A stretch of 64,000 nt of DNA, taken from contig NZ_JAENII010000008.1 in NCBI RefSeq assembly GCF_016595525.1, forward strand, positions 124,001 through 188,000, in the 5' to 3' direction. Every line of letters starts with the position of its first letter. Position 1 is the first letter of the stretch. A model generated the notes under the pieces. The model made no database searches. It was not told the DNA's origin and saw only the letters and a program-made list of their open reading frames with translations. Below, piece after piece: positions 52,401 through 57,651 of the stretch. The DNA is from Haloferula rosea (GTDB lineage Bacteria; Verrucomicrobiota; Verrucomicrobiia; Verrucomicrobiales; Akkermansiaceae). The position numbers were made by a program, and so were the translations under genes.

Positions 52401-54110
52401 TCAGTCCGATCCTCCGTCGGTTGCCGTGACGGCGATCACTTCTTCGAGTGTTGTCACCCCCTGCATCACCTTGAACCATCCATAGCCCCGCATCGGGATG
52501 TAACCATCCTTGATGGCTCGAGCGCGCAGCGTCGGCGAGTCGGCCCCGTGGGCGATCATGTCCTGCATCTGCTGCCCGAGGACCACGACTTCGTAGATCG
52601 CGAGACGACCGGAGAACCCGGTTTCCCGGCACCGGTCGCATCCTTTCGCCTCGTAGGCCTGCCCCTGAATCTCAGCGGGAATCCCAAAGGCTTCACGATC
52701 CGCAGGAGTTACATCGCGCGGCGACTTGCAGTGGTCGCACAGCTTCCGCACCAGACGCTGAGCGAGGAATGCCCGCACCGCCGCCGATACCAGGAAGGGC
52801 TCCACCCCCATGTCGATCAAACGACTGATGCCACCCAGAGCATCGTTCGTGTGCAGCGTGGAGAACACCAAGTGACCGGTGAGGGAGGCACGGATCGCAA
52901 TCTCCGCCGTCTCGAGGTCACGAATTTCCCCGATCATCACCGTGTTCGGATCCGCACGAAGAATGGACCGGAGGCCGGCCGCAAAGGTCAGACCAATATC
53001 CGACTTCACCGCGATCTGCATCACGCCGGGCAGCTTGTTTTCCACCGGGTCTTCGATGGTCACAATCCGCTGATCGGGTCGATTGATCTCACTGAGGAAC
53101 GAGTAGAGGCTGGTCGACTTACCGGAACCCGTCGGCCCGGTGATCAGGATGATTCCGTTCGGAAGATCCAGAAGCCCTTCGATCTTCTCGCGCACGAACG
53201 GCTCCATGCCGAGTCGGTCGACATTGAACTTCTCCTGGTTGAGAAGACGCAGCGAGACGCTTTCGCCTTCGACCGTAGGCACGGTCGCGACACGAACGTC
53301 GATCGTCTGCCCTTCCAACTGCAGGTTGATCCGGCCATCCTGAGGAAGTCGGCGTTCGGCGATATCGAGCCTCGACATGATCTTCAGGCGCGCGATCACC
53401 GAGCTTTGCAGCGCCTTGATGTTCTCCGGCACCGTGACCTCGATCAAACGACCGTCGACCCGGTAGCGGATGCGCAGATTGTCGGCGAGAGGCTCGACGT
53501 GAATGTCCGTGGCCTTCTGCTCGAGCGCTTCGCGAATGATCTGGTTCACGAACTTCACCACGCTCGCTTCCTCATCGTCATCGGCGTCGATCACATTGGC
53601 CTCATCGGCCATCTCGAGGTTACCGAAGTCCATGTCGCGACCTTCGAGAATCTGCTCGAAAGTATCCGCACCTACTCCGTAGAGCCTGCGGAGGGACTCG
53701 TGGACGCGGCGACGGGAGGCCATGCACCATTCCACGGGCATGGCGATCTCCTGAGCGACCGCCTGCCGTGCCACCAGATTGAACGGGTCGAAAGTGACAA
53801 GCTTCAGACGTGGATTCTCCTCATCGCCAAGCAGTTCCAGAGGAAGTAGTCGGTAGCGCAGAGCCACCCGAGGCCCACAGGCTTCCCGAAGGGGGAGCGG
53901 CGCCTCAGGCATGACGATGCTGTCAATCCACTCCATCCCGAGCGACGCGGCGAGTTCCCTGAGGTAGGGTTCCTCATCGACGACCCCGGCGTCGAGCAAA
54001 TCGTCAATGGGAGAGCGCTGACGCTGAGCGGCGCCATCGAGTACTTCACCCAGTTTATCCAGGTCCTGGCATCCGCTTTTCCGTGCGGGTTCGATCAAGA
54101 GGTCCGTCAT
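52401..54110 (-). CDS. Type IV pilus/type II secretion ATPase (PilB/GspE)
   Basis: 569 residues. An N-terminal GspE_N-like domain (about 1-150), then the ATPase core: Walker A GPTGSGKST (about residue 325), Asp-box and Walker B DPNTVMIGEIRD, His-box LVFSTLHTNDA, and a tetracysteine zinc module CDHC...CDRC at about 457-495, all typical of the extension ATPase. It powers insertion of pilins or pseudopilins. Two-gene operon with the PilC/GspF gene. A PilT retraction ATPase is not seen, which would fit a pseudopilus or secretion machine. Confidence 0.93.
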   Translation of the reverse strand: MTDLLIEPARKSGCQDLDKLGEVLDGAAQRQRSPIDDLLDAGVVDEEPYLRELAASLGMEWIDSIVMPEAPLPLREACGPRVALRYRLLPLELLGDEENPRLKLVTFDPFNLVARQAVAQEIAMPVEWCMASRRRVHESLRRLYGVGADTFEQILEGRDMDFGNLEMADEANVIDADDDEEASVVKFVNQIIREALEQKATDIHVEPLADNLRIRYRVDGRLIEVTVPENIKALQSSVIARLKIMSRLDIAERRLPQDGRINLQLEGQTIDVRVATVPTVEGESVSLRLLNQEKFNVDRLGMEPFVREKIEGLLDLPNGIILITGPTGSGKSTSLYSFLSEINRPDQRIVTIEDPVENKLPGVMQIAVKSDIGLTFAAGLRSILRADPNTVMIGEIRDLETAEIAIRASLTGHLVFSTLHTNDALGGISRLIDMGVEPFLVSAAVRAFLAQRLVRKLCDHCKSPRDVTPADREAFGIPAEIQGQAYEAKGCDRCRETGFSGRLAIYEVVVLGQQMQDMIAHGADSPTLRARAIKDGYIPMRGYGWFKVMQGVTTLEEVIAVTATDGGSD

Positions 54111-54244
54111 TCAGCTATGCGTCTTGTCACGTAAAACCGCCCACCCTGCAACCTTGTCTCTTCAAAATTCGGAACAATCCAGTTTTCCATCGAGAACCCA
54201 CCCAAAGATGGCCAATCCGCCCGCACCGGCTATCCTCCTCTGAA

Positions 54245-55201
54245 ATGCGACTGCTTCTCCTTCTCGTGCTACACCTGAATCTGTCGGTCGCTCGCGCCGA
54301 CCCCCAGCGCGCATCCAGCGGAAATCAGCCGGTTTTGATCGAAGACGAAGCAGGACGCCGCACATGGCACACCTCCCGGCTCTCAATTCAATCCACCGCG
54401 AACCTGAGCCCGAGGGACTTGAACCGACTTGTCACCGTGGCCGAGGCCACCGTTCGCGCCGTGGCTGCCCATCCGCTCCCCTTGTTCAAGCCTCCCTCGG
54501 ATGAGCGCCTGCGGATCATCATCCTCCACGACGATGCCAGCTACGTCGCCGAAGGCGGCCGTGTCGGGTCGGCCGGGATGTATCTTTGGCGTCAGCAATG
54601 TGTCATTCTCCATGCCCAGCACCTGTTCCGATCCCTGCCCGCCAGCCGACTCCGCGCCGAAGCTGACGAGAGTCTCGTCGTCCACGAACTGGTCCACCTC
54701 TGCATGCACAGCGCTCCCCCGAACCTTCCACAGTGGCTGAAGGAGGGAATCTGCGAGTACTTTGCGGCAGCCCATCAAGGGGCTGGGAAATTTCGTTTCG
54801 ACCAGCCCGAGCAGTCGATTCGTCGCCATCTGCGCAAGCGCTTTGATCCCGCTGACCCGGAAATCCCCGTTGCCCCGATCCACGAGATCGCCGGCCTTGA
54901 TGCCAGGCAGTGGTCCGCTTATCTCGATCGCCTCCCCTTGGATGAACGCCTGCCTCCCTACGCCACCGCGCTTCTTCTGACCCACTATTACCTCCACGGA
55001 AGCAAGGAGCGGCAAGACCTCATCCGCCGTGCCCTCGAAACCCCAACCAAGGAGGCCCGCGAACCCGTCGACCTCCATCTCCGAGGAGAAAATTCAAAAA
55101 TTCTCGAGCAACTCGGGAACTACTGGCGTCCCAAAGGCCTCCAACTCAAGACTTCATCGTCTCTGCCCGCCACTCCGGCCGAAGAATCTCCGAACCGATA
55201 A
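54245..55201 (+). CDS. Exported HExxH metallopeptidase-like protein
   Basis: 318 residues from the ATG at 54245, which starts a signal peptide (MRLLLLLVLHLNLSVARA). The zinc motif is H147ELVHLCMH with WLKEGICEYFA about 16 residues later supplying the third ligand Glu, the gluzincin arrangement seen in DUF1570-like peptidases of the PVC group. The N-terminal ~95 residues and the C-terminal tail are not recognised. Probably a periplasmic peptidase; substrate unknown. It is divergent from pilB. An AT-rich, hairpin-rich region follows (55202-55485). Confidence 0.72.
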   Translation: MRLLLLLVLHLNLSVARADPQRASSGNQPVLIEDEAGRRTWHTSRLSIQSTANLSPRDLNRLVTVAEATVRAVAAHPLPLFKPPSDERLRIIILHDDASYVAEGGRVGSAGMYLWRQQCVILHAQHLFRSLPASRLRAEADESLVVHELVHLCMHSAPPNLPQWLKEGICEYFAAAHQGAGKFRFDQPEQSIRRHLRKRFDPADPEIPVAPIHEIAGLDARQWSAYLDRLPLDERLPPYATALLLTHYYLHGSKERQDLIRRALETPTKEAREPVDLHLRGENSKILEQLGNYWRPKGLQLKTSSSLPATPAEESPNR

Positions 55202-55226
55202 GGCCGGAATGGGTCCAGAAACCAAA

Positions 55227-55246
55227 GTTTTTGGGGGTAAAAACTA
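55227..55246 (+). other. Hairpin with a G-rich loop after the metallopeptidase gene
   Basis: AGTTTTT, loop GGGGGT, AAAAACT: a perfect 7-bp stem with a G5 loop, 26 bases after the stop at 55201. It resembles the GGGG-apex hairpins further on but with a weak A/T stem, and might be a weak terminator or part of the following RNA element. Confidence 0.4.
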
Positions 55247-55319
55247 TCACTATTCCAAAAAAGTTCATGTAACCTTAAGAAAAGGCTTTCCAAATTGATA
55301 TTTCCAGATACACCTATTC

Positions 55320-55472
55320 CCGTGCTTCGGCACCGGTCCATTGGCGCACCCTGCGTAAATTGACCTGCCTGAATTCCGGGGGGATTTCAGACAGGTTTGG
55401 CAGAAACCGCCAAGAAGGACTCAGAAAGGACGCGAGTTGAGAATCCGGGGGGAATCCGACTCGCGTCTTTCT
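55320..55472 (+). ncRNA. Candidate structured RNA, copy 1 (GGGG-apex element)
   Basis: Not a known family to me. Three hairpins follow in order: GTGC-TTCG-GCAC (55322-55333, a stable UUCG tetraloop); a 15-bp stem with two mismatches closed on GGGG (55363-55396, apex TTCC-GGGG-GGA); and a long terminator-like hairpin (55423-55472) with apex AATCC-GGGG-GGA. The second copy at 56602-56753 has the same order, with 69 and 63 bases between the two GGGG apexes. An AT-rich tract (about 55245-55315) could hold a promoter. Orientation is taken as plus because the GGGG apexes and U-rich tail read that way. It may be a small RNA or a double 3'-end structure. Confidence 0.5.
55423..55472 (+). terminator. 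Terminator hairpin, GGGG apex, copy 1 (shared by convergent genes)
   Basis: AGAAAG-(G)-ACGCGAGTTG pairs with CGACTCGCGT-CTTTCT, then a three-versus-one internal loop, then ATCC-GGGG-GGA(A)T. U-rich on the 3' side and A-rich on the 5' side, so it can end transcription from both the plus-strand metallopeptidase and the minus-strand MazG-like gene, which converge here. Confidence 0.7.
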
Positions 55473-55485
55473 ACGTACCCCTGCC

Positions 55486-55845
55486 TCAGGAATTCCCGAG
55501 TTCGTTGTACTTCAGGTTGTTCCCCTTGGACTTGTGAACCGGATACCGTTCCTCATTCCTCTCGATCTTTGCACGCATGATCTGCCCCAAGTCGAAGCCG
55601 AGGGTATCCGCCATTTCGAACAGGAGAATGCCAACGTCGGCAATCTCGGAGGCGATCTCATCCCGGCGCTCTTCTGCCCGACGCTCGACCTGTTCGGGTT
55701 GCTGCCAGACAAAATGCTGCAGCAACTCCCCTGCCTCCGCGGCAATGGCCACCGCCATGTCCTTTGGATTGTGATACGGTGCCCACTCCCGCGCTGCAGA
55801 GAACTCCCGAATCTGCTGGGTCAGCCGCTGAATTGAATCTTCCAT
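55486..55845 (-). CDS. MazG-like nucleotide pyrophosphohydrolase
   Basis: 119 residues from the ATG at 55845. All-alpha MazG/RS21-C6-type fold: EAGELLQHFVWQ (Glu37, Glu40) and EIASEIADVGILLFEMADTLG give the Mg-binding EExxE...ExxD arrangement. Enzymes of this group hydrolyse (deoxy)nucleoside triphosphates such as dCTP or damaged nucleotides, acting as pool cleaners. The upstream frame extension is divergent-promoter sequence, so I did not use it. The gene is divergent from msrB; the two lie between the two RNA-like elements. Confidence 0.85.
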   Translation of the reverse strand: MEDSIQRLTQQIREFSAAREWAPYHNPKDMAVAIAAEAGELLQHFVWQQPEQVERRAEERRDEIASEIADVGILLFEMADTLGFDLGQIMRAKIERNEERYPVHKSKGNNLKYNELGNS

Positions 55846-55941
55846 GTCCCGACCTCGCAGCTTCAAGCTGCTGGACCAAGCAATTTCCGCGGGAATCAGG
55901 CTCGCCCTTGCGCCTCCTACCCAGCGCACTACCTTCCGACC

Positions 55942-56550
55942 ATGAAATTTCCCTTACTTAGTCTGCTGAGCCTGTCCCTTGCGGCTTGCGCCGAGACCAA
56001 ACCCAGTAGCCCCATCATGGAGACCTCCGACACCGCCCCCGCCCAACCCAGCGAGAAAATTGCCAAGACCGACGCCGAATGGCGTGCGGAACTAACACCC
56101 GAACAGTACCACATCCTCAGGGAGGCCGGGACGGAGCGTGCGAATGGCAAGGTTTACAAGGAGTTCAAGGAGCAGGGCGCCGGCACCTACTACTGCGGTG
56201 GCTGCGATGCTGAACTCTTCTCATCGAAAGAGAAGTTCGACTCCGGTTGCGGATGGCCATCGTTCTACGATCCGGCCAACGCGAAGAACGTGAAGACATC
56301 GACTGACTACAAGATCGGCTATGCACGCACCGAGGTTCTCTGCGCGGTCTGCGATGGCCATCTAGGCCATGTGTTCACGGGAGAGGGCTTCGACACTCCG
56401 ACCGACAAGAGATACTGCATCAATGGGATTGCCCTCAAGTTCGTCCCCGCCGGGAACAAGGCGCCCGATCAGGCAAAGCCGGCTGATCCCTCAAATCCCG
56501 CGACGAAAGGCGCGGTGGACGGACAACAGGGTGACCCAAACAAGGAATAG
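55942..56550 (+). CDS. msrB: Peptide-methionine (R)-S-oxide reductase, lipoprotein form
   Basis: 202 residues. The N-terminus MKFPLLSLLSLSLAAC16 is a lipoprotein signal, so the enzyme would sit in the periplasm on a lipid anchor. The MsrB domain has zinc cysteines C85GGC88 and C134AVC137 and the catalytic C159 in RYCINGIALKF. It reduces methionine-R-sulfoxide in oxidised proteins. A low-complexity tail (Pro/Gly/Gln) follows. It needs an electron donor crossing the membrane. Divergent from the MazG-like gene; followed by the second hairpin cluster. Confidence 0.95.
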   Translation: MKFPLLSLLSLSLAACAETKPSSPIMETSDTAPAQPSEKIAKTDAEWRAELTPEQYHILREAGTERANGKVYKEFKEQGAGTYYCGGCDAELFSSKEKFDSGCGWPSFYDPANAKNVKTSTDYKIGYARTEVLCAVCDGHLGHVFTGEGFDTPTDKRYCINGIALKFVPAGNKAPDQAKPADPSNPATKGAVDGQQGDPNKE

Positions 56551-56601
56551 TTCAGCCCACTTTATCCTTTTACTTTCCGAAACTTGCGCTTTCCTTCCCG
56601 C

Positions 56602-56629
56602 TGAGTTGCGTCTTAAAGCAGCTCAATTT
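56602..56629 (+). terminator. Candidate terminator of msrB
   Basis: TGAGTTGC (56602-56609) pairs with GCAGCTCA (56618-56625) with one G-U, loop GTCTTAAA, followed by ATTTT; 51 bases after the msrB stop. It stands where the first hairpin of RNA-like copy 1 stands, so it may belong to that element instead. Confidence 0.45.
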
Positions 56630-56707
56630 TCCACATGTGTCGGGTTTCAAACCCAACTTGGTTTCCGGGGGGAGGCTTTGTTGGGATTCCTGACTGTTGG
56701 GACAATC

Positions 56708-56753
56708 GAAAGGTGCGGGTTGTGAATCCGGGGGGATCCAACCCGCGCCTTTC
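56708..56753 (+). terminator. Terminator hairpin, GGGG apex, copy 2 (shared by convergent genes)
   Basis: GAAAGGTGCGGGTTG pairs with CAACCCGCGCCTTTC (one U-G pair), then TGA opposite C, then ATCC-GGGG-GGAT. It lies between convergent msrB and the Hyi-like gene and is A-rich on one side, U-rich on the other, so it can serve both. Confidence 0.7.
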
Positions 56754-56760
56754 AACCGAT

Positions 56761-57579
56761 TCATTGGCTGCCTGAGGCATGGTCCACCTTCCAGAGGCGC
56801 TCGGCAGCTCGGCGGGGCTCCGCCCCTTCCGGTAGGCACTCGGCACCGAGCGGCAGCCGGTAACCAATCTCACGGACCTTGCGGAACACCTCGGAGTAGT
56901 TGACCTCCCCGGTTCCCGGTTCGTGACGACCTGGCGAATCCGCAAACTGCACGTAGCCAATCCACTCCTTTCCCTTCTCAAGGTTGTCGATCAGGTTGCC
57001 CTCGTAACGCTGCATGTGGAAGAGATCCCAATTCAGTTTGACGTGAGTGGACCCAACGGCTTCACAGATCGCGATGCCATCCGCGCTTCCATAAAGGCAG
57101 TGGCCCGGATGATTGTAGGGGTTCATCGGCTCGACGATCGCCGTGCATCCGTGGGTCTCCAGCACCGGAACAGCCGCCCGAAGCTTTTCAATGACCGATC
57201 CGTGCATCTGCCCTTTCGAAAGCCCCTTGATGTCATCCCCTGCCACGACGCAGAAGCGATCACAACCCGGCAAAATGGGAGCAGCTTTGCACGCGGCCTC
57301 AATCTCCGCGACAAAGTCACTGACTGGAAAATCCGGATCGTTGATCTCCTGACCAAATCCCCACGCAGTGAACTGGGTCGCCGTCATGCCGTGACGGCGC
57401 AACGCTTCCGCACCAGCCGCCAAATCCTTGTCCCGCCAGGTCCAAAGCTCAATCGCCGGGAATCCCAGTTCCGCGGCCTGCTCGATACGCTCGACAAATG
57501 AGCCCTCGAACCACATCTCGATGTTGACCGCGATGGCGGTGTGCGGAGTCCTGCCTGGTAGATCGCCTTGTTCGCTCAC
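56761..57579 (-). CDS. Hydroxypyruvate isomerase-like TIM-barrel protein
   Basis: 272 residues from a GTG at 57579 (a TTG four codons earlier is possible; neither has a strong ribosome site). The xylose-isomerase-like barrel has FPAIELWTWRDKDL, CTAIVEPMNPYNHPG, VKLNWDLFHMQRYEGNL and the closing GYVQFADSPGRHEPGTGEVNY, which is the Hyi/OtnI hallmark. The metal is held by the Glu and Asp/His of these segments. It would interconvert hydroxypyruvate and tartronate semialdehyde or a related keto sugar. Single gene, followed by the shared terminator. Confidence 0.85.
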   Translation of the reverse strand: MSEQGDLPGRTPHTAIAVNIEMWFEGSFVERIEQAAELGFPAIELWTWRDKDLAAGAEALRRHGMTATQFTAWGFGQEINDPDFPVSDFVAEIEAACKAAPILPGCDRFCVVAGDDIKGLSKGQMHGSVIEKLRAAVPVLETHGCTAIVEPMNPYNHPGHCLYGSADGIAICEAVGSTHVKLNWDLFHMQRYEGNLIDNLEKGKEWIGYVQFADSPGRHEPGTGEVNYSEVFRKVREIGYRLPLGAECLPEGAEPRRAAERLWKVDHASGSQ

Positions 57580-57651
57580 GCGGGAACCCAAGCACCCGGC
57601 CCGCAGGATTGCACGCAGGAACAGGACCGAGTCACCCTCGCTCCGCCGATG

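Follow-up and report, generated by a model that had tools for sequence, protein, structure and literature searches.

The small RNAs (sRNAs) CsrB, RsmY and RsmZ sequester the proteins CsrA and RsmA. In Listeria, the sRNA LhrC binds mRNA through redundant loop motifs, including one in the terminator loop, according to the part of the LhrC report used here (PMC4132741). Hardly any regulatory RNAs have been described in Verrucomicrobiota: a 2022 survey, in the excerpt that covers the PVC group, lists just 8 distinct annotated sRNAs for this entire group (PMC9029176). In the open-licence papers searched, we found no comparable sRNA for Verrucomicrobiota. Here, we examined two elements from Haloferula rosea that lie in a stretch of 64,000 nucleotides, called the window in the following. 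These two copies appear to be members of an uncatalogued, multi-copy family of small regulatory RNAs of Luteolibacter-like bacteria. The original prediction had called the element undescribed, and indeed no fitting Rfam family was found: Rfam 15 recognized only a single tRNA in the whole window, gave no match at 55200-56765 at E up to 1, and reported none for five loci at the gathering threshold; a search with six loci returned one chance-level hit (HOTAIR_2, E 0.5).

Both copies contain three hairpins in the same order (Table 1), as had been claimed from the letters of the two gaps, and sequence and folds agree on this point. In each gap, two of the hairpins share the identical apex UCC-GGGG-GGA, at a spacing of 69 and 63 nt. 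Between the copies, the sequences of the 5' hairpin are dissimilar. Fold z-scores against dinucleotide shuffles are -4.40 for the stretch of copy 1 and -4.92 for copy 2, and values as low were seen in 0 of 200 shuffles each. The long hairpins could be aligned in the way first written for them, and single changes that preserve pairing can be seen between the window copies. The claim of at least two double compensatory changes was slightly generous: one is clear (A-U to G-C), and the second hinges on the placement of a bulged base. By BLAST, hairpin 2 of copy 2 has relatives in the same genus, in 6 further genomes. A scan of the window for terminator-like structures did not list the long hairpins; both copies miss its T-run rule, and many relatives carry TTTTCTTTT at this position. 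The 4.68-Mb genome contains 12 occurrences of the 10-mer apex sequence TCCGGGGGGA, four of them inside the two window copies. Lone hairpins with apex TCC-GGGG-GGA were also observed in the same genome near position 1501 of L005 and L007; the L007 hairpin resembles a terminator, and a further G6A run lies about 110 nt upstream of it.

Table 1. Features of the two putative sRNA loci and their flanking genes (window coordinates)
Feature	Position	Strand	Basis or remark
Putative sRNA, copy 1	55320..55475	+	Ends placed by promoter-like core and terminator hairpin
5' UUCG hairpin, copy 1	55322..55333	+	Folds
G-loop hairpin 1, copy 1, apex UUCC-GGGG-GGA	55363..55396	+	Folds; covariation helix 1
G-loop hairpin 2, terminator-like, copy 1, apex AAUCC-GGGG-GGA	55424..55471	+	Folds; helices 2 and 3
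Promoter-like core, copy 1 (CTTTCC, 17 nt, weak -10-like hexamer)	55286..55311	+	Predicted; aligns with block conserved in relatives
Putative sRNA, copy 2	56600..56756	+	Predicted ends
5' hairpin, copy 2	56603..56624	+	Folds
G-loop hairpin 1, copy 2, apex UUCC-GGGG-GGA	56652..56685	+	Folds
G-loop hairpin 2, terminator-like, copy 2, apex AAUCC-GGGG-GGA	56708..56753	+	Folds
Promoter-like core, copy 2 (weak)	56566..56594	+	Predicted; by-eye alignment with relatives
ORF upstream of copy 1	54083..55201	+	No Pfam match; in congeneric species, relatives precede the orthologous sRNA (similarity by eye; neighbour clustering)
MazG-like gene, convergent with copy 1	55486..55845	-	PF12643; same neighbour in L042, L046, L200
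SelR/MsrB-domain gene, upstream of copy 2	55942..56550	+	PF01641; same upstream neighbour in L044, L206
Xylose-isomerase-like TIM-barrel gene, convergent with copy 2	56761..57591	-	PF01261

To describe the conserved structure, we used an alignment (A1) of 58 of 59 distinct members, from which one with an atypical second hairpin (L069/L122) had been dropped. RNAalifold predicts 22 pairs for this alignment, 14 of them with double compensatory changes. Cells at these positions are paired in 96.1% of cases, compared to 85.9% after shuffling and 34-59% when the partners are slid by 1-3 columns. Similarly, 139 cells contain double changes versus 43.3 in the shuffles, and in each of five measures the observed value was reached by 0 of 500 shuffles. 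Helix 2, the terminator stem, changed on both sides in 10 of its 12 pairs. Groups folded separately contain 33 to 61 pairs, of which 8 to 26 are double-changed; the group at the NAD-synthetase locus forms a longer nested structure with outer helices that close hairpin 1. These data show that RNA structure is under selection in this family, and the covariation over 58 relatives is unambiguous where the original prediction had compared two copies. The UCC/GGA pairs at the apex of hairpin 2 do not vary among the 58 members, and this invariance is uninformative for the first 59 members because the search patterns required the apex sequence.

The distribution of the family was examined by way of the tandem pattern TCCGGGGGGA-N40-70-TCCGGGGGGA. 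Within the window's genus, 17 of 18 genomes contain it, and the reversed pattern, used as a control, gave 0 in all 18. In a sample of the phylum, eight of 387 genomes matched. Six belong to the same genus, one (G029) belongs to another genus of the same family and contains three copies, and the last hit (L071 in G346) was discarded since it resembles coding repeat sequence. Adding GAA to the pattern and searching 84,980 species genomes yielded 90 stretches, among which we picked the members by eye, on structure and record title. The 47 stretches with members all come from records titled Akkermansiaceae, Akkermansia, Verrucomicrobia(ceae), Verrucomicrobiia, Verrucomicrobiota, Luteolibacter or Haloferula, and sequences identical to members from the window's genus occur in Luteolibacter marinus, Haloferula luteola and Haloferula sp. 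The remaining 43 are unrelated and were left out; they are repeats or matches by chance, among them CRISPR-like arrays, Streptomyces sequences and an Armatimonadetes repeat. Two Chloroflexota records (L147, L149) contain regular, CRISPR-like repeats of ~67 bp that include TCCGGGGGGA and match the tandem pattern by chance. Single TCCGGGGGGA sites are a separate matter: those in G010 and G002, as well as some of the G016 sites, lie mostly within coding frames, and two genomes from other families of the order (G043 and G050) contain 74 and 58 such sites versus 9 and 5 of the reversed sequence.

A covariance model (R1) matches copy 1 at 55333-55482 (90.6 bits, E 2.6e-26) and copy 2 at 56623-56764 (72.9 bits, E 6.8e-21), both copies being among the 58 sequences of the model. 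The search with such a model, which had been proposed together with the original prediction, matched 36 of 145 family genomes at E up to 0.001, namely 18 of 18 from the window's genus, 15 from g13, two from g10 and one from g8; hairpin echoes on the opposite strand contribute to the match counts. The hits from g10 (L230, L231) are plain terminators that lack a G loop and were not counted, and g1 and g13 alone were accepted. Below E = 1e-7, the only matches outside the window's genus were in a single further genus of the family. Among 285 genomes of the class, 20 matched, including six from outside the family with E between 7.5e-6 and 8.6e-4. Weak members may have been missed, as the filters were strict in both searches and few candidates were scored in each genome. 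Further copies do exist in related genomes, and their stem changes maintain pairing; the lack of either had been named in advance as evidence against the element.

We then clustered the neighbour proteins of 97 elements. Each orthologous group has neighbours of its own that recur from species to species, and no neighbour is common to different groups; these neighbours include NAD-synthetase-like, GlnD-like, tRNA-guanine-transglycosylase-like and RarA-like genes (names by eye). A fixed hairpin that is present several times in a genome could also be expected from a mobile or repetitive element, such as REP-like hairpins, a miniature transposon or a recombination site. The retention of group-specific neighbours argues against this origin, as do the phage and plasmid collections without a match in distant BLAST searches with copy 1, and the viral contigs, none of which contains the tandem pattern. 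We regard a mobile element as extremely unlikely. Downstream genes occur on either strand, an observation that bears on the possibility that the element is a cis-acting leader (riboswitch or attenuator) of the following gene. Two groups do contain a same-strand gene soon after the terminator (NAD synthetase-like and tRNA-guanine transglycosylase-like). However, the downstream gene is encoded on the opposite strand in the window copies and in other groups, it is not common among groups, and no same-strand gene follows closely behind the window copies, which leaves a leader function highly improbable.

The sequences preceding the elements are conserved as well. Ahead of the 5' hairpin, many members contain a CTTTC-17-[GG][CT]A[AT]TTT-like block and, farther upstream, a 30-bp box (TGgCCGaTTTTGGGAcCAntTGGCCGgatT) of 33.1 bits, compared to 7.9 in shuffled sequences. 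This box scores >10 in 48 of 89 non-redundant upstream regions, or in 46 of 87 without the two that were found by the box itself. The far-upstream box is absent from both window copies, whose promoter-like cores are weak, and the sigma-70 consensus has no match in the window. A first box search in 7 genomes produced seven sites, each preceding a member. When 145 genomes were searched with nothing but the box, 22 sites turned up in 10 of them (0 with the reversed control), and the 360 nt downstream contain two G5+A runs at 17 of these sites, one at 2 and none at 3. The RNA itself was not used in this search, which was nevertheless not blind, the box having been derived from members. The result shows that the box, with up to 3 mismatches, occurs mostly ahead of these RNAs. 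An MraZ-like reading of its 10-bp TGG repeats was considered as a possibility. At a locus of G015 (L336, 1500-1860, minus strand), a run of three degenerate copies of the CCGATTTTGGGA box precedes a parB-like start (by eye) with no G-loop RNA after them. From the sequence, we infer that transcription would begin at the element's own promoter-like core and stop at hairpin 2.

This arrangement leads to the question as to whether the elements are simply paired bidirectional transcription terminators between convergent genes, devoid of RNA function, as the original prediction had allowed. Convergent genes flank both window copies, and the A-rich and T-rich flanks of hairpin 2 do pair. In contrast, many paralogues are followed by a same-strand gene, conservation extends beyond the terminator hairpin to hairpin 1 and the upstream sequence, and at least one G loop follows 19 of the 22 box sites. 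Variants of the family also bear on this point. The pairing partner of the G run differs among groups (UCC, UCU, CCU, UUU) with GGGGGG(G)A constant; several groups with changed partners read CUCUGGGGGGAGA, UCCUGGGGGGGAA and AUUUGGGGGGAAU, and all keep the G run. Two G5+A runs are present in 28 of 38 further covariance-model matches and not in the other 10. In one variant (L223, L225, L238, L241, L344, L347, L350, L353), the terminator has a plain loop without a G run and two G6A loops are retained elsewhere; in L238, L241, L344, L347, L350 and L353, which the wider box search added, the second G6A is carried by a short extra hairpin. Since this variant keeps two G6A despite its plain terminator loop, it provides the best evidence that the G loops, and not the terminator, are conserved. 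Terminators are therefore no adequate account of the whole element, of which only hairpin 2 is terminator-like, and we consider this explanation very improbable. Two related loci in G010 (L247, ~880-1080; L251, ~940-1140) may encode another RNA: both have a promoter-like block resembling that of the sRNAs, a G6-7A run (TGCGGGGGG(G)ACTTGC) upstream and a TCCGGGGGGA hairpin downstream, and after these a plain GC-rich terminator-like hairpin.

With a conserved structure and no fixed neighbour, the elements look like independent genes and fit the general description of a trans-encoded sRNA. The small RNA of about 150 bases envisaged by the original prediction thus gains support from the family-wide covariation, the genus-wide copies, the conserved upstream sequence and the lack of a common neighbour, and we conclude that the copies very probably are stand-alone sRNAs. 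Each element would be the gene for a trans-acting sRNA of ~155 nt, one of several sibling copies per genome, driven by its own promoter and, in many relatives, placed beneath the shared upstream box. The transcript would consist of the 5' hairpin, a second hairpin and the terminator hairpin, the latter two displaying the same G6A loop. We infer that these two loops are the contact sites, either for base pairing or for protein binding.

Protein binding would make the RNA a sponge, with two identical G6A hairpins titrating a G-run-hairpin-binding protein other than CsrA. This main rival is consistent with the two identical apexes per RNA, with an apex sequence that is invariant on variable stems, with several redundant, co-regulated copies, and with same-apex hairpins elsewhere in these genomes (L005, L007; L247, L251, L261, L281). 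However, there is no candidate protein, and each RNA offers two sites only. CsrA (PF02599) was detected in 0 of 57 relatives by a search that was positive in 3 of 14 control genomes, which eliminates CsrA as the titrated protein. We judge the sponge rather unlikely.

In the base-pairing mechanism, which we consider the most likely, the G6A loops would pair with C-rich stretches of mRNA leaders near start codons and thereby alter translation. The redundant mRNA-binding loops of LhrC speak in favour of this step (PMC4132741). C-rich loops of other sRNAs bind G-rich Shine-Dalgarno sequences, and the proposed pairing of G loops is the mirror image of this interaction. We surveyed start regions in 400 kb of G010, a single-contig genome of the genus, with 335 genes called by a home-made gene finder. 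Before the predicted starts in this region (L312-L331), no Shine-Dalgarno enrichment was found. The C content of the last 32 nt before the starts is 0.33-0.40 and equally high within genes. For 213 genes with a gap of at least 60 nt, CCCC occurs 104 times at -40..-1 versus 54 times at -80..-41, and it is barely raised for 119 short-gap genes (31 versus 24). Runs of five or six C near the starts do not exceed local composition (CCCCC: 21 of 334, versus 41.5 in block shuffles), nor does TCCCC (40 versus 41.2). The C-rich starts therefore make pairing with G loops possible, and nothing beyond that. In the same region, TTTCC is enriched at -25..-1. One striking complement, the reverse complement of an sRNA stretch at a truA-like start in G010 (L252; gene named by eye), was dropped, its site not being conserved in the genus. 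Hfq (PF17209) was found in 0 of 57 relatives, and the same search was positive in 5 of 14 control genomes; the usual chaperone is therefore missing. Taken by itself, pairing of the G6A loops with C-rich mRNA falls just short of an even chance in our estimate. The whole proposal, a stand-alone trans-acting sRNA of ~155 nt including the C-rich mRNA pairing step, we hold to be evenly balanced. Possible, if on the doubtful side, is the broader idea of a separate riboregulatory system, which would have evolved in a clade with C-rich mRNA starts: redundant sRNAs with twin G loops, controlled by a single dedicated transcription factor (at the TGGCCGATTTTGGGACCA box), would act on C-rich starts lacking Shine-Dalgarno sequences, without Hfq or CsrA.

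If the proposal is true, culturable Luteolibacter and Haloferula would contain a large, multi-copy sRNA family in genomes where Hfq and CsrA were not found. The family would come with a ready model, copies that can be deleted and a regulator box, and it would allow testing of base-pairing regulation where starts show no Shine-Dalgarno signal. Like CsrB, RsmY and RsmZ, these RNAs have repeated GGA-apex hairpins, redundant copies and a dedicated, putatively activating box upstream. Unlike in those systems, CsrA is absent in 57 of 57 genomes searched, and each RNA has just two sites, the two G6A apexes, with GGA predicted to be paired in the stem. The Two-AYGGAY RNA motif also presents the same loop on two hairpins of one RNA, but differs in loop sequence and taxonomy, and Rfam returned nothing for 55200-56765 even at E up to 1. 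With intrinsic, possibly bidirectional terminators the family shares the A and T tracts of hairpin 2; unlike such terminators, it conserves hairpin 1, the 5' hairpin and the upstream box along with hairpin 2. Compared to Listeria LhrC1-5, as characterized in the part of the report used here, the sequences are unrelated, the loop motif is G6A instead of UCCC, Hfq was not found, and the mRNA starts are C-rich with no Shine-Dalgarno signal (PMC4132741). In architecture, the two families are alike: both consist of sibling copies under common regulation, with a redundant contact motif displayed in loop A and again in the terminator loop, as far as that part of the LhrC report describes it (PMC4132741).
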